From contig JAOBWM010000031.1 in the NCBI GenBank assembly GCA_025463365.1, positions 1 through 33,215 of the forward strand: a stretch of 33,215 nucleotides of DNA. Direction: 5' to 3'. This DNA is from Acidimicrobiales bacterium (GTDB taxonomy: Bacteria > Actinomycetota > Acidimicrobiia > Acidimicrobiales > Iamiaceae). This document shows positions 5,090-21,287 of this stretch, piece after piece (within the stretch, counting starts at the first letter, position 1; every line of letters starts with the position of its first letter). A program made the translations under genes and the position numbers. The notes beneath the pieces are model-generated. The model made no database searches. It saw only the letters and a list, made by a program, of their open reading frames with translations, and was not told the DNA's origin.

Positions 5090-6079
5090 TCAGATCAGGC
5101 CGAGTTCCTTGACGGCGTCGCGCTCCTCGGCGAGCTCGCCGACGCTGGCGTCGATCCGACCCCGGCTGAAGTCGTCGATCTCGAGGCCCTGGACGATCTC
5201 GTACTTGCCGTCCTTGCACACGCACGGGAACGACGACATGAGGCCCTCGGCGACGCCGTAGCTCCCGTCCGACGGCACAGCCATCGACACCCAGTCGCCT
5301 TCAGGCGTGCCGAGGACCCAGTCGTGGACGTGGTCGATGGCGGCGTTGGCGGCCGACGCGGCCGACGACGAGCCGCGGGCCTCGATGATCGCCGCGCCGC
5401 GCTTCTGGACGGTCGGGATGAAGTCGTTCTCCAGCCAGGCCTGGTCGTTCACCAGTTCGGCGGCGTTCTTGCCGGCGACCTCGGCGTGGAAGATGTCCGG
5501 GTACTGGGTGGCGGAGTGGTTGCCCCAGATCGTGACCTTGGCGATGTCAGCGACCGCCGCGCCGGTCTTGGCGGCGAGCTGGGCGGTGGCCCGGTTGTGG
5601 TCGAGACGGGTCATGGCCGTGAACTGCCCGTTCGGGATGTTCGGGGCGTTGTTCATCGCGATGAGGGCGTTGGTGTTGGCCGGGTTGCCGACGACGAGGA
5701 TCTTCACGCCGGCGGCCGCGCTGTCCGACAGCGCCTTGCCCTGGGCCGTGAAGATGGCGCCGTTGGCCGCGAGCAGGTCGGCACGCTCCATGCCGGCGGT
5801 GCGGGGCCGGGAGCCGACGAGCAGGGCGATGTCGGCACCGTCGAACGCCTTGTTGGCGTCGTCGGTCTTCACGATCCCCGCGAGGAGCGGGAACGCACAA
5901 TCGTCGAGCTCCATCGCCACGCCGTCGAGCGCGCCGAGAGCCGGCGTGATCTCGAGCAACTGGAGGATGACGGGCTGGTCCGGCCCGAGGAGGGCACCGC
6001 TCGCGATGCGGAACAACAGGCTGTAGCCGATCTGGCCGGCACCCCCGGTGACGGCGACGCGTACGGGCTCGGTGCTCAT
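5090..6079 (-). CDS. mdh: Malate dehydrogenase
   Basis: NAD(P)-dependent oxidation of malate to oxaloacetate in the TCA cycle; cytosolic. The 329-residue length and sequence match the cytosolic/chloroplast-type MDH group found in many actinobacteria. Visible motifs are the Rossmann turn GGAGQIG at residues 12-18, the active-site loop PRTAGMER near 92-99, GNPANTN at 131-137, Asp160 in MTRLDHNRA and catalytic His188 in [11 protein letters not shown]. The chosen ATG at 6079 has AGGAG 10 nt upstream on the minus strand; 24 residues of open frame before it have no family character. Together with the isocitrate dehydrogenase and succinyl-CoA ligase genes it gives three TCA enzymes in the window, although they are not in one operon. 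Confidence 0.95.
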
Positions 6080-6188
6080 TGCAGGGGGACTCCTCGTGAG
6101 GACATCGGGCGAACGTTCGAACCCTAGCCAGGGTCCTCCGGAACCCTTCAACGGAGCCGGGGCCCCCCGATCGGGTCGCGCCGGGCCC

Positions 6189-7766
6189 TCAGCGCGACGG
6201 CTTGGCCGTCTCCACGAAGTCCTTGGCGCGGGGCCAGGCCGTGGCGGCCCAGTACTGCACGGTCGGGCCCGGCCAGTTGTTCGTGATCTTGCCGGAGTCG
6301 GTCTTGTACCAGGAGTGGCACGAGGCAGCCCACACCGTGTTGTCGAGCCGCTTCACGAGCGACTTGTTCGACGCGGCTTCGGCCTCGGGCTTGACCTCGA
6401 GGGTCGCGTCGCCGGACTCGGTCAGGCGGCGCACGCAGGTGAGGACGTACGCGATCTGTCGCTCGAGCATGAAGATGATCGAGTTGTGCCCAAGGTTCGT
6501 GTTGGGGCCGTAGAGGACGAACAGGTTCGGGAACCCGCTCACCGTCATGCCGAGGTGTGCCTCGGCCCCGGCGGCCCACCGTTCGTGGAGGTCGGCACCG
6601 TTGCGACCGGTGACCCGCATGGGCATGAGGAAGCCGGTGCTGGCGAATCCGGTGCCGAAGATGATCGTGTCGGCGGCACGCTCCTCGCCCCCGGCCACGA
6701 TGCCGCCGGGCGTGACGCGCTCGACGCCTTCCGTCACGACCCTGACGTGCGGCGCCATGAGCGTCGGGTACCAGTCGTTCGAGATGAGGATCCGCTTGCA
6801 GCCGAGCGGATAGTCCGGGATGACGGCCGGCTCGGGCAGGTCCTCGCTCACCAGCAGCCGCAGGCCCTCCTCGAACTTCTTGCGACCGATGTCGCCGGCC
6901 TTCGAGCCCTTGCGGAGCAACAGCCAGCGGGACTCGAACCGGGCCCAGATGGACAGGCGGTAGAGGCGCAACAGGAAGGGCGAGCGCTCGAACCGGCGGC
7001 GGGCGAGATCGGAGATCGGGCCGTCGGGCTTCGGGGCGACGTAGTTGCTGCTGCGCTGGTAGAGCGCCAGCGACTTGGCCTGCTTGGCCACCTCGGGCAC
7101 GAACTGGATGGCGCTGGCGCCGATCCCGACGACGGCGACGTCACGCCCGGTCAGGTCCAGGTCGGCCGGCCAGCGGGCCGAGTGGAACGTGGTGCCGGTG
7201 AAGTCGTCGCGGCCGTCGATCGCCGGGATCCACGGGCGGTTCAGCTGGCCGGTTGCCGCCACGACCACGTCGGCCTCGGCCTCGGTCCCGTCCTGCAGGC
7301 GGAGCCGCCAGCACCGGGCGTCATCGTCGAACGTTGCCTCCTCGACCGCGCATCCGAGGCGGAGGTGGTCGGCGAGGCCGAAGCGGTCCACGAGCGACTC
7401 GAGGTAGCCGAGGATCTCGGGCTGCTGGGGGAACTTCCGGCTCCAGTCCGCCTTGGGGGCGAACGAGAGCGAGTACAGGTGCGAGGGCACGTCGCAGGCC
7501 GCGCCGGGATAGGTGTTGTCCCGCCAGGTCCCGCCGACGCCCTGCTCGCGCTCGTAGATCGTGAAGGTGTCGATGCCGGCCTGGCGCAGCCGGGCCGCCA
7601 TCCCGAGGCCGCCGAAGCCCGTGCCGATGATGGCGACCCGGGGCGTGGACGTGCCCGGTTCGACCGGCGGCGCCAGCGCACCGGGGAGGCGGGCAGCGAC
7701 GCGCCGCAGCGGCTGAGGAAGGTGGGCCGCGAGCCGTGCGGTCCGACCGGGGGAGGGTGCGGTCAT
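6189..7766 (-). CDS. Flavin-containing Baeyer-Villiger-type monooxygenase
   Basis: A 525-residue FAD/NADPH monooxygenase predicted to insert oxygen into ketones or oxidise related lipophilic substrates; the substrate is unknown. The FAD dinucleotide-binding motif GTGFGG is at residues 48-53, the Baeyer-Villiger fingerprint [12 protein letters not shown] at 189-200, and the NADPH-binding motif GIGAS at 214-218. The later FGTGFAST and [12 protein letters not shown] segments are typical of the family. About 40 Arg/Ala/Pro-rich residues precede the FAD domain. ATG 7766 is preferred because GAGG lies 8 nt upstream; ATG 7772 is two codons earlier. A perfect palindrome 26 bp upstream suggests TetR-type control, which fits catabolism of a hydrophobic compound. 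Confidence 0.9.
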
Positions 7767-7791
7767 CGCCATCGCCTCGGAGCGTACCGAT

Positions 7792-7809
7792 CTTGACCGG
7801 GCGGTCAAG
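7792..7809. promoter_or_regulatory. Palindromic operator candidate (TetR type)
   Basis: CTTGACCG-GG-CGGTCAAG is a perfect 8+2+8 inverted repeat in the divergent region between the monooxygenase (start 7766) and the GGCT-like gene (start 7901). Length and symmetry match operators bound by TetR-family dimers. No TetR gene is present in the window, so the regulator is unknown. Confidence 0.6.
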
Positions 7810-7900
7810 TCTTGGCGAGCGTCGGACCCGTCGAGCCGGACGTGGCGGGGCGAACTGGCTCGTTGACCCGCCGGGCCGGGTCGGCTGGCAGAGTTGGCCC

Positions 7901-8341
7901 ATGTCCGAGCCGCTGTTCGTGTACGGCACCCTGCTGCCCGGCCATCTGCGCTGGGGGATGCTGCTCGCCCACGCGGTCGACCAGTGGCCCGCGGTGACCC
8001 CAGGGCAGCTCTACGACACGGGCAACGGCTGGCCGGCGGCCGCCTTCGACACCGGTCGGGGTGCCCAGGTGGCCGACGAACCGGTCGTCCGCGGCTGGAT
8101 CGTCGTGGTCGACCCACCCGACCTCATGGGGCTGTTCGCCGAGATGGACGCGATGGAGGGCATCGCGACGCCGCCCGACCCTGCCGTCGACCCGTACGTG
8201 CGGTTGCGGGTGGCGACCCGACCGCTGGCCGATGCGCGGGAACGGCCGCCGACGATCACGTGGGGCTGGAGCTACCACGTCACGAAGATCGGCCCGTCCT
8301 GGACGCCCATCGATGAGTGGACCGACCAGGACGAGCACTGA
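7901..8341 (+). CDS. Gamma-glutamylcyclotransferase (GGCT/AIG2-like) family protein
   Basis: A 146-residue protein with the GGCT fold. The N-terminal signature LFVYGTLLPG is at residues 5-14, and the catalytic-position glutamate is E86 in MDAMEG. Family members cyclise gamma-glutamyl groups to 5-oxoproline or act on related amide bonds; the substrate here cannot be read from sequence. A Trp-rich C-terminal part (WGWSYHV, SWTPIDEW) is also seen in the family. ATG 7901 opens exactly at the conserved N-terminus, and the longer upstream frame has no family character. The gene stands alone on the plus strand, divergent from the monooxygenase and sharing its palindrome-containing intergenic region, and convergent with the aldehyde dehydrogenase gene. 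Confidence 0.85.
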   Translation: MSEPLFVYGTLLPGHLRWGMLLAHAVDQWPAVTPGQLYDTGNGWPAAAFDTGRGAQVADEPVVRGWIVVVDPPDLMGLFAEMDAMEGIATPPDPAVDPYVRLRVATRPLADARERPPTITWGWSYHVTKIGPSWTPIDEWTDQDEH

Positions 8342-12884: not shown

Positions 12885-15212
<2,328 letters not shown>

Positions 15213-15438
15213 CCGAGTCCGCGACGTGCACCCCGGCCGGTCGGCGAATCGACCGAGCCTCAAGGTCAACACGCCCACCGAGGCCGGCCGGAAGGTCACG
15301 ATCATCGTCGGCGAGGAGGGCCACCACGACGCCGAGGGACAACTCCCCGTCAGCTGGTGGTTCACCTTCAAGCCCGTCGAGACGGAACCGAGCATTTCGC
15401 GGGGTTGGTCGATCTGTGGTGGGCGCGACAATGCGGCC
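15213..15438 (+). other. Coding-like stretch upstream of the DinB gene
   Basis: Between the isocitrate dehydrogenase stop and the DinB ATG, the DinB frame stays open from GTG 15226. It encodes a protein-like sequence (LKVNTPTEAGRKVTIIVGEE, QLPVSWWFTFKPVETE) with nearly all third positions G or C. I do not recognise it. It may be an N-terminal extension of the DinB protein, a gene remnant, or chance. Confidence 0.35.
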
Positions 15439-16005
15439 ATGGCCACGACCCGACGAGCAGACATGTTCATCGATCTCGAGGGCGACCCGCGCGAAGACGG
15501 GCCGACGTTGGGTGACGAGCGCACCACCCTCGTCGAGGGCTTGCGCTGTGCGCGCCTCACGTTGGAGATCAAGTGCTCGGGTCTCGATGCCGAGGAGATG
15601 GCGCGGCGCTCCGTCGAGCCCTCGACCATGTCGCTGCTGGGGCTGGTACGGCACCTGGCGGAGATGGAGCGCGGTTCGTTCCGCATCGTGATGGCTGGGC
15701 AGGACGTGCCTCCGCTGTTCTGCTCCGACACCGACCGCGATGGCGACTTCGACGGCGCGGTTCCCGACCCGCAAGTGGTCGCCGAGGCCTGGGACACATG
15801 GCGAGCAGAGGTGGCCTTCGCCGAGCGATTCGTCGCCGATGCGCCGAGTCTCGACATCACCGCAAAGGAACGGCAAGGCGTCGGCGCAGGGCACGGCCCG
15901 ATCTCTCTGCGCGAGGTGCTGCTCGAGATGTTCCACGAGTACGCCCGCCATCTCGGTCACGCCGACCTCCTGCGTGAGCGGATCGACGGACGCATCGGCC
16001 AGTAA
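15439..16005 (+). CDS. DinB/DUF664 family protein
   Basis: A 188-residue four-helix-bundle protein of the DinB/DUF664 superfamily. In actinobacteria this superfamily includes mycothiol-dependent metalloenzymes. The likely metal ligands are H72 (LVRHLAEMER) and H171 and H174 (YARHLGHADLL). The ERTTLVEGLRCARLT start of the first helix is typical. ATG 15439 is the only in-frame ATG before the fold. The same frame is open upstream to a GTG at 15226, and that stretch has coding-like third-position GC, so an N-terminal extension cannot be excluded. Enzymatic role unknown; mycothiol use is inferred from the family and host type. Confidence 0.85.
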   Translation: MATTRRADMFIDLEGDPREDGPTLGDERTTLVEGLRCARLTLEIKCSGLDAEEMARRSVEPSTMSLLGLVRHLAEMERGSFRIVMAGQDVPPLFCSDTDRDGDFDGAVPDPQVVAEAWDTWRAEVAFAERFVADAPSLDITAKERQGVGAGHGPISLREVLLEMFHEYARHLGHADLLRERIDGRIGQ

Positions 16006-16118
16006 CTCGTACGTGCGGCCGACCGGTGTGCATACGATCGGCCCGGCCTCCCGTGCTCGGCCATCGCTGAGGGGGAACGGGAGCCGGACTGCTTCGATCT
16101 CCACCGAAGGGTGCACCC

Positions 16119-17540
16119 ATGTCTCCGACCCGGCGTGAGTTCCTGGCGGGCGCGCTCGCCACCGCGGGCGTGGCCGCGGTGGCTGGCTGCTCCAACGGCT
16201 CGTCCGATGCCGGCACGAAGGACGACCGCGGCTCGACGACCACCAAGCCCAAGGGGAAGACGACACCGTCGGAGTCGGGGCTCGCCCGGGTGACCACGCC
16301 GCCCGATCCGGCGTCGTCGGGACTCGACCACATCGTGGTGGTGATGATGGAGAACCGCTCCTTCGACCACTACCTCGGCTGGCTGCCCGGCGCCGACGGC
16401 AAGCAGGCCGGACTCACCTTCACCGACAAGAACGGCACGTCGATGGACTCCCATCGGCTGACCGACTTCCAGAACTGCGACCATCCCGACCCTGACCACA
16501 GCTACGAAGGCGGCCGGGTCCAGCTGGCGAAGGGCGCGTGCGACGGGTTCTTGAAGTCGGGGCAGAACGACGAGTTCGCCATCGGGTACTTCACCCAGGA
16601 CGACCTGCCCTTCACCGGCCAGGCCGCGGCCCACTGGTGCACGCTCGATCGCTACTTCAGCGCCACCATGGCCGAGACGTACCCGAACCGCTTCTACCAG
16701 CACAGCGCGGGCACCGATCGCACCCACAACTCGTTCAAGATCAGCACGCTCCCCACGATCTGGGACCGCCTGGGGGCCAAGGGCGTCAGTGCCCGCTACT
16801 ACTTCAACGACGTGCCGTTCATCGCGTTGTACGGCGGCAAGTACGGGTCGATCTCGAAGCCGTTCGACGCCTTCCTCCAGGACGCGGAGAGGGGCACGCT
16901 CCCCGCGGTGTCGTTCGTGGATCCGAAGTTCACGAACGAGGGCAAGGGCACCTCGGCCGACGACCACCCCCACGCCGACATCCGCGCCGGCCAGTGGTTC
17001 CTCGACCAGATCTACGAGGCCGTCACCAAGGGCCCGAGGTGGGACAAGACCCTGGTGGTCGTGAACTACGACGAGTGGGGTGGCTTCTTCGACCACGTGG
17101 CCCCCACCGAGGCCCCCGACCTCACCCCGAAGCAGGGCACCGGCCTCCGCGGCTTCCGGGTCCCGGCGATGCTGTGGGGCCCGACGGTCCAGCGAGGCAC
17201 GATCGGCCACGAGACCTACGACCACACCTCGATCCTCAAGATGATCGAGTGGCGCCACGACCTCGCCCCACTCACGCCTCGGGATCGAGCCGCAAGGAAC
17301 CTCGCCGAAGTCCTCGACCTGAGAGGCAAGCCCGACACCGAAGCCCCCCAGTGGAACGTGGCCAAGTTCGATCCAATCGCCTGCGGAACGCCCCAGGTGG
17401 TCCCGGCCACCGCCTCCAAGAAGGCCGACGAGGGCGACGGCGAGGCGCTCGGCCCCGACGGCGAGGACCACTTCGCCGAATGGCAAGGCATCCGCACCCT
17501 CGCCGACCACCACCGCTTCCCAGCCCCATTTTCCTTCTGA
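16119..17540 (+). CDS. Phospholipase C / phosphoesterase family lipoprotein, Tat-exported
   Basis: A 473-residue member of the bacterial phospholipase C/acid phosphatase (phosphoesterase) family, which hydrolyses phosphodiesters outside the membrane. The N-terminus has a twin-arginine signal (TRREFLAG, R5-R6) and a lipobox ending at C24 (VAGC), so the protein should be Tat-exported and lipid-anchored. A Ser/Thr/Lys-rich linker (25-65) precedes the catalytic domain, which opens with HIVVVMMENRSFDHY (residues 71-85), holding metal ligands Glu78 and Asn79 and the characteristic ENRSFDH. DHPHADIRAGQ, VVNYDEWGGFFDHV and YDHTSILKMIEWR follow as expected. ATG 16119 has GAAGGG 7 nt upstream. A TACGAT hexamer at 16033-16038 could be the -10 box. 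Confidence 0.92.
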   Translation: MSPTRREFLAGALATAGVAAVAGCSNGSSDAGTKDDRGSTTTKPKGKTTPSESGLARVTTPPDPASSGLDHIVVVMMENRSFDHYLGWLPGADGKQAGLTFTDKNGTSMDSHRLTDFQNCDHPDPDHSYEGGRVQLAKGACDGFLKSGQNDEFAIGYFTQDDLPFTGQAAAHWCTLDRYFSATMAETYPNRFYQHSAGTDRTHNSFKISTLPTIWDRLGAKGVSARYYFNDVPFIALYGGKYGSISKPFDAFLQDAERGTLPAVSFVDPKFTNEGKGTSADDHPHADIRAGQWFLDQIYEAVTKGPRWDKTLVVVNYDEWGGFFDHVAPTEAPDLTPKQGTGLRGFRVPAMLWGPTVQRGTIGHETYDHTSILKMIEWRHDLAPLTPRDRAARNLAEVLDLRGKPDTEAPQWNVAKFDPIACGTPQVVPATASKKADEGDGEALGPDGEDHFAEWQGIRTLADHHRFPAPFSF

Positions 17541-17648
17541 ATCGACCGACACCACGCGGCTGGCCAACTTGCATCGAACTCGATGCCGGCTTCCCCCGGG
17601 TCTCGTACATCGCCAAGCAGGCAACCGCAGGGCCTCGGAGCGGAGCCG

Positions 17649-17858
17649 TCAGATCTGGTCCACTATGTCCAGGATCTCGACAACGCGATCACAGGGCTCA
17701 TGCATATCGCCAGCCATCGTCGTACTGCCACGCTGAACACAGGGCTTGCCGTTCCGGAACTCCGCGCAGGCCTTCGAGGTCACCCACTCCCGCAACGCCG
17801 CCTTCTGTGCGCTGCTGATCGCCACTCGACGATCGTAGGACGACGGACAGACACGCAT
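17649..17858 (-). CDS. Small Cys-containing hypothetical protein beside the restriction gene
   Basis: An unrecognised 69-residue frame, 48 bp downstream of the restriction-endonuclease-like gene on the same strand. The central part has coding-like third-position GC from the GTG at 17825 onward (VAISSAQKAALREWV), so the real product may be the 58-residue form starting there. It holds Cys residues in KAC-x7-PC and HEPCDR patterns plus a His, so metal binding is possible. A TACGAT hexamer on the minus strand at 17837-17832 lies 6 nt before GTG 17825, which would suit a leaderless transcript. I cannot assign a function. Its place at the end of the cassette suggests an accessory or controller role, but no helix-turn-helix is visible. 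Confidence 0.42.
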   Translation of the reverse strand: MRVCPSSYDRRVAISSAQKAALREWVTSKACAEFRNGKPCVQRGSTTMAGDMHEPCDRVVEILDIVDQI

Positions 17859-17906
17859 CTCACCGGTCTCAATGCGGCCGCGGACCCCACAAGTGTCGAA
17901 GTGGAA

Positions 17907-19079
17907 CTATCGCTCAGGGTGGAGCAGTAGATCCTGCAGCGTGAAGGACCATGTGTCATCGATTCTTTGAATGGCACCAATCCTCGATGCATCCTTCTTC
18001 CAGGCTGCAAGAGCGGTCGCCTTCTTGAACCTGAATGTCCACCGTCCGGACACCGAAAACATGCACGCTGCAACGATGTCGAATGCATCGAACAAGTACT
18101 TGCGGCCGGCACCGGAGTCCCGGGTCTTCTGCGTCTCGACCTTGGCGTCACCGTCTCGGTAGGTTGAACGAAGGGCGTTCTTGCACTCGATGGTGAGTTC
18201 GCGGCCATCGTGGAGCCAAATTCGAAAATCCGGCTGTCCGTCCTTATCGATCGCCTCATACCTGGCCACCGTTGGGTCGCTCGCGAGCAATCGGCCCAGA
18301 TGGTGCTCTGCGACGCTCCCCCTGACGGCAACGCCGAGTCGAAAGTTTGCTTCGACGATGTCCAGGATCGTCGCAGCATCGATCCCAAAGAGCCGCTCGA
18401 GCGCGTGACGGTCGACGCTCGCCGACGCGAACTGCTCGGCGAGCTTGAGCCTGAGGCCGGTCTCCAGACCCAAGCTCGTCGACAGGGCTTCGAATCGCGC
18501 GTAGTCGAGCAGGCGGTCGGGCTTGAATCCCACCATCGACTCGATGCCTTCCCAGGCCTCGCCTTGCGCGGTGCGAGGCTTCGACTTCTCCTTTGCCCAG
18601 ACCCACCAGCCGTGCTCGGCAACCGCGTCTGCGTGCTCGTCTCGGTAGTACCCGGAGATGCCCATGGGCAGCTCCTCGTAGACGAGCGGGTCGAGACCCA
18701 CGATGACGCCGCGCTCGTCGTCGACCGCGAGTACGACGGTCACGTCGACGCCGGCGGGGTCGTGACCAAGCGGGTTCGGCTCGTTGCGAACTCTCGTGGG
18801 ATCCCCGTACTTGACCTGGAAACGATGCTCCGACTCCGGTCGGTTGGTGATCCTACGCTTCGTCGTTCGGAAGGGATAGGTCAGCAGTCCGTACCGATGG
18901 CCGTCCGAATCCTCGGCGCCGATGAACATCGGAGCGACCAGCTCGTCGGGGAACGAGCACGAGACGACTCGCCCGCCACCCGCCTCGATCCCGTCCAACA
19001 GGATGTCCACCATCGAGCCGCGAGCACGCTGCACGCGGTACAGCTTCGGCACATATTCGCGACCGCCCAGGCTGGTCAC
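17907..19079 (-). CDS. Putative type II restriction endonuclease, PD-(D/E)XK type
   Basis: A 390-residue protein directly downstream of the cytosine methyltransferase gene (30 nt gap). The C-terminal part has a nuclease-like core: PDF at 283-285 and ECK at 298-300 (D284, E298, K300), in strand contexts FRIWLHD and ELTIECKN. A DXXR-like helix with KTRDSGAGRKYLFDAFDIVAA follows. The first 180 residues contain HRFQVKYG, GVDVTVVLAVDDERGVIVGLDP and GWWVWAKE, which look like a separate recognition or modified-DNA-sensing domain; I cannot name it. Start GTG 19079 keeps the whole fold, with no good ribosome site; ATG 19013 is an alternative. Base use is less GC-biased than in neighbouring core genes. 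Nuclease assignment rests on motif and context. Confidence 0.7.
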   Translation of the reverse strand: MTSLGGREYVPKLYRVQRARGSMVDILLDGIEAGGGRVVSCSFPDELVAPMFIGAEDSDGHRYGLLTYPFRTTKRRITNRPESEHRFQVKYGDPTRVRNEPNPLGHDPAGVDVTVVLAVDDERGVIVGLDPLVYEELPMGISGYYRDEHADAVAEHGWWVWAKEKSKPRTAQGEAWEGIESMVGFKPDRLLDYARFEALSTSLGLETGLRLKLAEQFASASVDRHALERLFGIDAATILDIVEANFRLGVAVRGSVAEHHLGRLLASDPTVARYEAIDKDGQPDFRIWLHDGRELTIECKNALRSTYRDGDAKVETQKTRDSGAGRKYLFDAFDIVAACMFSVSGRWTFRFKKATALAAWKKDASRIGAIQRIDDTWSFTLQDLLLHPER

Positions 19080-19109
19080 CTCGCAGGCACAGTCATCCGG
19101 AAACCTCGA

Positions 19110-20327
19110 TCAGACCGATGCTGCGACACCACACGCGACGTGTTGCGCCAGCAGGGGCGGTACGGAGTTGCCGATCTGGGCTTGGACCGAACTGCGCCGA
19201 CCAACGAAGGAGAAGTCATCAGGAAAGGTGAACAATCGTCGTAGCTCGGGGACCCGCAGACGTCGGTTGTCCCAGTGGAACGGACCGACGTTGGGACCGG
19301 GCTGGGCCTGGATGGTCGGTGCGGGCTTGTTGGGATCGAGCTTCAGGAGGAAGGACCAATAGCGGCTCCGCCACTCGAAGATCGGATCCGGGTGGCCCCT
19401 CTCTGCGGTGTAGTGGAGGTAGTTCCCTCCGGGAGGGATCTCTGGGAGAAGATGCCCCCATCGGCCTCGGATCACCTCCTCGGCCTCGGGCTCAGTGATC
19501 AGATCGGCGAGCACCTCGCCTGTCGTCAGGTGCGGGAGAGGTCCACCTCCCGTCTTGCGGCGCTCCCAGTTGCCGTGGTGCGTGGCATCAGGGAGTTCCG
19601 GCAGCTTGTCGCGCTTGCGGGCGCCGACGATGAACAGTCGGGGTCGGGCTTGAGGAACGCCGTAGTCCGCAGCGTTGAGGACCTTCCAGTCGAAGCGGTA
19701 GCCAGCCGCCTCGATCTCGCGCAGAAGGCGCTCGAACGCCGGCTTGCTCGCCCTGTTGTTGAAGGTGAGCGCGTAGACGTTCTCGAGGATGAAATGGCGG
19801 GGCCGCGCCTCGGCGAGGACCTTCGTGTAGGCCTGCAAGAGACTCGCCGCCGGGTCGATGCCGTCCCGCTTCCAATCGAGCCAGAAGCCGGACTTGGAGA
19901 AGGCCACGCATGGCGGACCGCCCACCAAGAGGTCCGGCCGTTCCCGGCCCCTGAGCCCACCGGCTCGCAGGATGTCGCGCGTCGAGACCCCTTCGCCGGC
20001 GCCTGTGGCCAGCTGGTAGAGATCGGCTCGCACGACCTCTTGCAGGCCGGGGAAGAACTCCGGAGCGTTCTTCTCCATCGTGTCGGCCGCGTCCTCATCC
20101 CACTCGACCGCTGCGATCGTGGTGAACCCAGCCGCCTCGATCCCGAGATCGAGGCCCCCTGCACCGGAGAACAGGGAGATCGCTGAGCCGACGGTCACCT
20201 CGCCAGTCTGCCCGGTCCACGGGCGATCGGCTGGCATCGACGACCGGCCCGGACGGATGGGGCTCGGGCGGATCGGAAGCTTCTGCTGGACGGCTCGAGG
20301 ACGACCATCGGGCGGTGCACTGCTCAT
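19110..20327 (-). CDS. DNA (cytosine-5-)-methyltransferase
   Basis: Transfers methyl from S-adenosylmethionine to C5 of cytosine in a specific site; the modification half of a type II system. All main m5C motifs are present, counting from ATG 20327: motif I ISLFSGAGG (50-58), IV with nucleophile Cys140 in GGPPC, VI ENV (182-184), VIII QARPR (226-230) and X QIGNSVPP (384-391). The variable target-recognition region lies between VIII and the C-terminus, about 235-345. The N-terminal 43 residues are Pro/Arg-rich and poorly conserved, so translation may begin at GTG 20198 (residue 44) or ATG 20237. The 405-residue form is reported because it has the longest ATG start. The restriction gene follows and Vsr is divergent. 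Confidence 0.93.
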   Translation of the reverse strand: MSSAPPDGRPRAVQQKLPIRPSPIRPGRSSMPADRPWTGQTGEVTVGSAISLFSGAGGLDLGIEAAGFTTIAAVEWDEDAADTMEKNAPEFFPGLQEVVRADLYQLATGAGEGVSTRDILRAGGLRGRERPDLLVGGPPCVAFSKSGFWLDWKRDGIDPAASLLQAYTKVLAEARPRHFILENVYALTFNNRASKPAFERLLREIEAAGYRFDWKVLNAADYGVPQARPRLFIVGARKRDKLPELPDATHHGNWERRKTGGGPLPHLTTGEVLADLITEPEAEEVIRGRWGHLLPEIPPGGNYLHYTAERGHPDPIFEWRSRYWSFLLKLDPNKPAPTIQAQPGPNVGPFHWDNRRLRVPELRRLFTFPDDFSFVGRRSSVQAQIGNSVPPLLAQHVACGVAASV

Positions 20328-20412
20328 GCACCCAGTAGACCCTGGGTTAGTGACAGCGAAGGATCCGGAACCCCGGGAGGTGGGTCCTGGCCAGGGACGA
20401 CGCCCTCGCACA

Positions 20413-20853
20413 GTGAACCTCGGCGCTGGCCAGATCGTCCCGTACCCCGAGCCCACCAGCGCCGCAGCGACCAAGATCGGCAAGGCGAACCGGCGGGTGG
20501 ACACCAAACCTGAGGTCCAGCTTCGATCGCTGCTGCACCGACGAGGCCTCAGGTTTCGAAAGGACCTGCTGATCAGAGCTGAAGGCGTTCGAGTGCGACC
20601 TGACATCGTGTTCACCCGGCGACGGCTGGCCGTGTTCCTCGATGGCTGCTTCTGGCACGGCTGCCCAGAGCACCAGCACATCCCCAAGAGCAACCGGGAC
20701 TACTGGGTCCCCAAGCTCGAGGCGAACATCAGACGCGACGACCGGGTGTCCGCAGCACTCGTTGAGGCCGGGTGGAGGGTGGTGCGGATCTGGGAGCATG
20801 TGCCCGCCGAGGCCGCCGCTCAGATGGTGCTGGATGCAATGACCGATCGTTGA
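20413..20853 (+). CDS. vsr: Very short patch repair (Vsr-type) endonuclease
   Basis: A Vsr-family nuclease that nicks DNA at T:G mismatches left by deamination of 5-methylcytosine, commonly paired with m5C methyltransferases. Recognisable blocks are YPEP, NRRVDTKPEVQLRSLLHRRGLRFRKD, RPDIVFTRRRLAVFLDGCFWHGCPEH (with catalytic Asp and the FWHGCP zinc/active-site motif), YWVPKLEANIRRD and GWRVVRIWEH. GTG 20413 gives 146 residues and a short leader before the conserved YPEP. The frame is also open to GTG 20350 and ATG 20326; the last would overlap the methyltransferase ATG on the other strand. It ends 11 bp before the convergent 76-residue gene. Confidence 0.92.
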   Translation: MNLGAGQIVPYPEPTSAAATKIGKANRRVDTKPEVQLRSLLHRRGLRFRKDLLIRAEGVRVRPDIVFTRRRLAVFLDGCFWHGCPEHQHIPKSNRDYWVPKLEANIRRDDRVSAALVEAGWRVVRIWEHVPAEAAAQMVLDAMTDR

Positions 20854-20864
20854 GGCCGCCGACC

Positions 20865-21095
20865 TCAGAGGCCAGGGAAGGCCTCTTTGAGGATCGCCAC
20901 GAGGCGGACGGCGGCGTCCCGGTCGATATGGAGCGACTGGCTCGGCTTGCCGACGTTCTCTCGTTGCTTCGAGCCGTAGCTCTCGAGCACGAGGATCCGA
21001 TGGTCCTCATCCTGTGACCAGCGATAGCCGCACTCGACCTCGGACTGGAACCCGATCGAACCCGAACGGTGCTCAAAGCTCTTGATCAGTGCCAT
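20865..21095 (-). CDS. Conserved small hypothetical protein next to Vsr
   Basis: A 76-residue protein with a good ribosome site (GGAGGAGGGACACC directly before ATG 21095). Its sequence resembles a widespread family of small uncharacterised bacterial proteins having an ILVLESYGS core, a K-P-S-Q-S-L strand, and an ending of AAVRL-x2-ILKEAFPGL. There is no signal peptide, helix-turn-helix or obvious catalytic residue; a small alpha/beta fold is likely. It converges on Vsr across 11 bp, so it probably has its own promoter in the 192-bp gap at 21096-21287. Whether it belongs to the restriction cassette or is an ordinary neighbour cannot be decided from one genome. Confidence 0.72.
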   Translation of the reverse strand: MALIKSFEHRSGSIGFQSEVECGYRWSQDEDHRILVLESYGSKQRENVGKPSQSLHIDRDAAVRLVAILKEAFPGL

Positions 21096-21287
21096 GGTGT
21101 CCCTCCTCCGCTCGTGCTCCGCTGCACGCGGATGCATCGGTTGAAGCTAGCCACCGATCCCGATGCCAGTCGCTCCTCCGCCAGCAATGCGGGGCCCGAG
21201 CGCCATCCACAAGGTGCGACGACAGGCCTGTCGAGTTGAGGCTGCCGTGTCGGGGATGGTGCCGCACAGGGACGAGTCGACCGTCTG

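Follow-up and report, generated by a model that had tools for sequence, protein, structure and literature searches.

The question raised by positions 17,649 to 21,095 of a 33,215-nucleotide (nt) stretch of Acidimicrobiales DNA (GenBank assembly GCA_025463365.1, contig JAOBWM010000031.1) is what kind of defence system is encoded there and which part of it, if any, is new. The whole stretch, termed the window, is contig 32 in a source genome of 4.3 Mb and 219 contigs. An earlier note on this DNA had read here a restriction-modification (R-M) cassette of a 5-methylcytosine (m5C) DNA methyltransferase, a Vsr endonuclease and an unfamiliar nuclease, and had put it forward as the window's best candidate for an undescribed defence system. 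The system is of a kind already known (Type II R-M), while the unnamed part is the nuclease domain, which has no name in the libraries searched (Pfam, NCBIfam, PADLOC and PDB sequences). It is likely that the locus is a horizontally acquired Type II R-M-Vsr cassette in which the methyltransferase and the nuclease share one site, most likely GAGCTC.

The nuclease is a 390-residue protein, encoded 30 nt downstream of the methyltransferase gene and in the same orientation (both minus strand). D284, E298 and K300, proposed at first reading as the PD-(D/E)XK residues, are invariant in all 24 aligned sequences (the window's nuclease included) and provide the conserved D...E-x-K pattern; H225, E228, R247, H260, Q317, T319 and R320 are likewise invariant in this set. 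The AF2 model of the nuclease, based on the 24-sequence alignment, has two domains (mean pLDDT 83, pTM 0.64), and the sole Foldseek match at E ≤0.001 is I-Ssp6803I. By VIA-align, the C-terminal half superposes on I-Ssp6803I (2ost_A) with a Z of 13.5 and a root-mean-square deviation (rmsd) of 2.8 over 127 residues, followed by Hjc resolvases (Z ~10), SPARDA chains and NhoI (Z 8.9). The C-terminal domain, as modelled, has a PD-(D/E)XK core, which bears out the earlier assignment. In sequence, this domain has no significant match in any of the four libraries, the weak rows for the nuclease being one PDB sequence at E 1.7 and a sub-threshold Pfam RmuC row at E 0.3. The nuclease has no match among phage records at E 1e-3 and two partial matches among plasmids. 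It also lacks a Pfam match to RE_SacI (PF09566), and BLAST to a SacI-family enzyme of Haladaptatus gives a best E of 9.9.

The methyltransferase is complete, as had been claimed, and matches PF00145 (DNA_methylase) in Pfam at E 3.3e-53; its catalytic PPC motif (P95-P96-C97) is invariant across 11 aligned methyltransferase rows. PADLOC labels the protein DruM-like (PDLC00026, E 3e-106), and a Druantia system was considered on this label. The label is not specific, because a SacI-linked methyltransferase has the same best PADLOC label (DruM). In Druantia a large DruE protein lies near DruM; the longest open reading frame (ORF) in the window encodes 1031 aa, the PADLOC scan having covered the cassette.

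Vsr is identified by NCBIfam TIGR00632 (136.1 bits vs the cut-off of 97.85), with further matches to Pfam Vsr (E 3.2e-16) and 1cw0 (E 1.2e-15). By its TIGR00632 score it is a regular member of its family and not strikingly divergent; the earlier note had called it divergent. Its gene is oriented opposite to the other two.

A scan of GTDB contigs yields 26 nuclease loci, partly from the same genomes as the order and phylum searches described below. The window's methyltransferase subfamily lies within the fetched flanks of 22 of these loci (including L052, where a methyltransferase fragment adjoins a nuclease fragment), Vsr matches occur in nine, and orientation varies; both counts are lower bounds, as several loci end at contig edges. 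Separate methyltransferase and nuclease genes are thus kept together across genomes, as is the mark of Type II systems, and the view of a coherent R-M-Vsr set stands. Distribution of the nuclease is patchy. With the source genome counted, it is found in 3 of 41 relatives, in 10 of 298 genomes of the order (one a weak fragment) and in 5 of 396 genomes of the phylum (two with the C-terminal part only, one a weak fragment); among named genomes, those with the nearest relatives of the nuclease are Acidimicrobiia metagenome bins. On one predicted viral contig (L055, positions 5508-8138) Vsr, a nuclease match in two pieces and a methyltransferase occur together. Another contig carries two nuclease copies 24 kb apart (L022 and L023); within the fetched stretch, a methyltransferase but not Vsr is matched near one copy, and Vsr but not a methyltransferase near the other.

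The predicted site comes from the partners of related methyltransferases. SacI recognizes GAGCTC. The window's methyltransferase subfamily is found beside a SacI-family enzyme on a Haladaptatus plasmid (PF09566, E 2.8e-35) and in the actinobacterial genome G285 (PF09566, 119.1 bits vs 19.3), the only one of 396 genomes with a PF09566 match. A maximum-likelihood tree of 29 methyltransferases places the G285 protein in a 100/100 clade with those of Leifsonia, Actinotalea, Nocardioides and Marmoricola, all four of which are partnered by an MTaX1-PD-(D/E)XK nuclease of the window's type; deep joins of this tree have long branches and are not relied on. Over its whole length the G285 protein is 65-68% identical to these four, and within the target-recognition region the identity rises to 74-79%. 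The recognition region of the window's methyltransferase is 57% and 52% identical to those of the two SacI-linked proteins, as compared to 20-29% for six other m5C methyltransferases. One methyltransferase clade is thus served by two unrelated nucleases, which makes GAGCTC the best guess for the site of the window's methyltransferase, and the nuclease is predicted from these sequence comparisons to be a non-homologous stand-in for SacI.

Several observations weigh against this reading. One of the three SacI-family loci seen, from Halorussus, has an adenine methylase instead, and recognition by the SacI-family and M.PvuII-like proteins at the loci considered here is assumed by analogy with the named enzymes. 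Three of the 26 nuclease loci (L032, L041 and L054) are without a methyltransferase match, L032 being a second nuclease copy in a genome where the other copy has the methyltransferase, and at a fourth locus (L049) the m5C methyltransferase differs in its recognition region. In addition, GAGCTC is not avoided: its observed/expected ratio is 0.91 in 340 kb of the host, and 0.89 and 0.98 in two other carriers vs 0.89 and 0.83 in two genomes without a hit to the nuclease. By z-score, the site ranks 11th among the host's 64 six-base palindromes, and it is 24th of the 34 kept when the three carriers are compared with the two other genomes (palindromes with an expected count <15 in any set were dropped). 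AGCT is lowest of the 12 four-base palindromes kept from 16; this rank was discounted as support, the host value (1.37) being no different from that of one genome of the other group (1.39). A large survey reports avoidance for about 50% of orthodox Type II systems and a lower frequency among those acquired recently (PMC4687349). The site counts thus neither support nor refute GAGCTC, and recent acquisition could be the reason for the lack of avoidance.

A wider set of loci bears on the core of the site. PvuII recognizes CAGCTG, and AGCT is common to the PvuII and SacI sites. The C-terminal nuclease domain occurs alone (185-203 aa) at L020 and L021, from two actinobacterial genomes of a single genus, and at L058, from a Methanothrix plasmid; near all three lies a gene for an N4/N6-type methyltransferase (typed by Pfam in L020 and L058, and in L021 by close likeness to that of L020). 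The L020 and L058 methyltransferases match M.PvuII (1boo) at E 4.7e-113 and 1.1e-100. MTaX1, the N-terminal domain of the window's nuclease, is in turn fused to an HNH nuclease in G129, where the neighbouring methyltransferase is M.PvuII-like (E 1.6e-104), and on a Paracoccus plasmid, where the neighbouring methyltransferase belongs to the SacI-like subfamily. Together these loci suggest nuclease exchange around a common AGCT core. Against a strict AGCT rule, MTaX1 is found in G302 and G378 beside tandem methyltransferase-like genes (named from sequence). A different MTaX1 system is seen at L088 (5344-9924) and L089 (2640-7438), from two actinobacterial genomes: MTaX1 is fused to a C-terminal region that Pfam does not match confidently, and two tandem methyltransferase-like genes with DPPFGSN or DPPFGNN motifs lie alongside. 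On a plasmid of Amycolatopsis sp. AA4 (L056, 6885-9817), a 364-aa protein comes before a methyltransferase of the window's subfamily (63% identical); this 364-aa protein has no match in Pfam or to the window's nuclease and is perhaps yet another partner enzyme. The stretch fetched around a sub-threshold MTaX1 match in G305 has none of the window's genes.

The N-terminal part of the nuclease had been proposed as a separate domain, and this is upheld by the two-domain model and by Pfam, in which MTaX1 (PF20296), a known methylase-associated domain, matches residues 66-193 (45.3 bits vs a cut-off of 25). MTaX1-bearing R-M systems are already in print, and the role of MTaX1 is a suggestion there (PMC10853773). 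The family is found in at least 5 of 396 genomes of the phylum, by a search that missed the window's own genome. Modelled alone, MTaX1 reaches a pLDDT of 84.8 and a pTM of 0.85, and Foldseek finds no match for this model at E ≤0.001. VIA-align again places 2ost_A first (Z 8.4, rmsd 3.8, 138 residues), a marginal score as the best background Z is typically 7 to 8; SPARDA chains and NhoI are next (Z 5.5 to 3.9), and EcoRV and BglI score below 3, no better than unrelated tRNA synthetase and RecJ rows. Both halves of the AF2 nuclease model share an order of elements (helix, two strands, long strand, strand, hairpin). When the strands are placed by eye, A49-P50 and Y68-F70 of MTaX1 take the positions of P283-D284 and E298-K300, and MTaX1 seems to be without catalytic residues where the live domain has them. 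These features lead to the hypothesis that MTaX1 is a catalytically dead PD-(D/E)XK fold, drawn from the predicted structure, since a profile-profile comparison reveals no sequence similarity between MTaX1 and the C-terminal domain. An extension of this hypothesis, possible though doubtful, is that the nuclease is a pseudo-tandem of a dead, DNA-reading copy (MTaX1) and a live, cutting copy, and that non-homologous modules (MTaX1, the window's nuclease domain, HNH and SacI-type) are exchangeable around methyltransferases with an AGCT core (m5C SacI-like and N4-methylcytosine PvuII-like).

The gene content, domains, catalytic residues, predicted fold, co-occurrence and methyltransferase subfamily are consistent with the following scheme of action. 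The methyltransferase would place 5-methylcytosine in each strand of a short palindromic site, for which GAGCTC is the likeliest sequence, and the nuclease, probably as a dimer, would cut the same site when unmethylated. Cutting would be performed by the C-terminal PD-(D/E)XK domain, which probably reads at least the AGCT core, because it is also found alone beside M.PvuII-like methyltransferases. MTaX1 may add contacts to the site or check its modification, and Vsr would nick at the T:G mismatches that arise from deamination of 5-methylcytosine.

Other explanations differ from this scheme in the site or in the role of the nuclease. The cassette may be of the same Type II kind with another recognition sequence, if its methyltransferase, after separating from the SacI-linked ones, drifted in the recognition region. 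Such drift would agree with the lack of GAGCTC avoidance and with the position of the window's methyltransferase outside the 100/100 clade of the actinobacterial SacI-linked protein, to which its recognition region is 57% identical; it is nonetheless unlikely, as that region is far closer to the SacI-linked proteins than to the six other m5C methyltransferases, and both methyltransferase sub-clades are partnered by the same nuclease family.

A modification-dependent nuclease (Type IV or IIM-like) that reads the modified base through MTaX1 and targets phage DNA with modified cytosine is improbable: a nuclease cutting at 5-methylcytosine would attack the DNA modified by its usual m5C partner, and NhoI, which was solved with quadruply methylated target DNA and is the structural match that favours this view (rmsd 3.5 over 111 residues), is surpassed by better fits elsewhere (Z 13.5 and ~10 vs 8.9). 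As the top structural matches are I-Ssp6803I and Hjc, the nuclease might also be a homing endonuclease or a Holliday-junction resolvase that simply accompanies the methyltransferase. It is hardly credible that so loose an association would leave the methyltransferase as the usual partner (22 of 26 loci), or that SacI-family or HNH enzymes would take the place of such a nuclease beside related methyltransferases.

The Type II R-M-Vsr cassette was probably acquired horizontally. In five of eight loci from the same genus, MTHFR adjoins the isocitrate dehydrogenase gene (window 12912-15212) with no cassette in between; in the other three, MTHFR is without an isocitrate dehydrogenase neighbour in the fetched stretch. 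The nuclease, methyltransferase and Vsr have no match at E 1e-4 in the fetched stretches of all eight. The GC content of the cassette genes is 0.63-0.66 vs 0.70-0.71 on both sides, and the empty site in five relatives and the lower GC point to acquisition.

Table 1. Features of the cassette and its surroundings (window coordinates).
Feature	Position	Strand	Details and basis
Restriction endonuclease, 390 aa	17907..19079	-	MTaX1 (~residues 15-205) and PD-(D/E)XK domain (~208-390); ORF, Pfam, alignment, AF2
m5C DNA methyltransferase, 362 aa, predicted GAGCTC	19110..20198	-	GTG start at 20198; PF00145
Vsr endonuclease	20413..20853	+	TIGR00632; in-frame GTG starts at 20413 and 20380 (alternative)
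Intergenic region between divergent methyltransferase and Vsr starts	20199..20412		Promoters presumed here
Island of ~6 kb, isocitrate dehydrogenase (monomeric) to MTHFR	15213..21287		Without counterpart in 5 of 8 same-genus loci

In addition to the cassette, the island includes, at 15451-17540, a mycothiol-S-transferase/DinB gene and a phosphoesterase-family gene, the latter with a weak twin-arginine translocation (TAT) signal match at its start. Two small ORFs (69 and 90 aa) flank the set and had been grouped with it; they are ruled out as members, since neither is conserved with the cassette (best E 0.18 across 30 homologous loci). The 90-aa protein has a single relative in the 40 other genomes compared, and the genome that carries it lacks a nuclease match.

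The analysis adds to the earlier note a predicted site, evidence of enzyme replacement beside one methyltransferase clade and a tentative structural reading of MTaX1. If these are correct, a restriction-enzyme family that Pfam, NCBIfam and PADLOC do not cover gains a testable predicted site, MTaX1 gains a testable structural and functional proposal, and the locus becomes a well-bounded case of unrelated nucleases swapping beside one methyltransferase subfamily. Exchange around the AGCT core, if true, would be enzyme replacement with the recognition core held fixed.

Among known systems, the cassette shares with the SacI system (RE_SacI, PF09566) the methyltransferase subfamily and recognition region, but its nuclease is unrelated in sequence and Vsr is present in some loci of its type (9 of 26). 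Like other MTaX1 (PF20296) R-M proteins, the nuclease has the N-terminal domain fused to a nuclease and lies beside a methyltransferase; unlike it, the other members seen here carry HNH, or a C-terminal region with no confident match in Pfam beside tandem methyltransferase-like genes. The link to PvuII-type systems is by the M.PvuII-like methyltransferases beside the stand-alone C-terminal domain and beside MTaX1-HNH; these are N4-cytosine methyltransferases, and R.PvuII is a different protein (1pvu, a weak structural match at Z 6.8 and rmsd 6.2). I-Ssp6803I and the Hjc resolvases have the PD-(D/E)XK core in common with the nuclease but are 14-15% identical to it in the four best rows and differ in biological role. 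Finally, the Dcm-Vsr pair and Vsr-bearing Type II systems likewise combine an m5C methyltransferase with a TIGR00632 Vsr, whereas in the window's Vsr a Leu-Asp aligns with the Thr-His that precedes GCFWH in E. coli Vsr.
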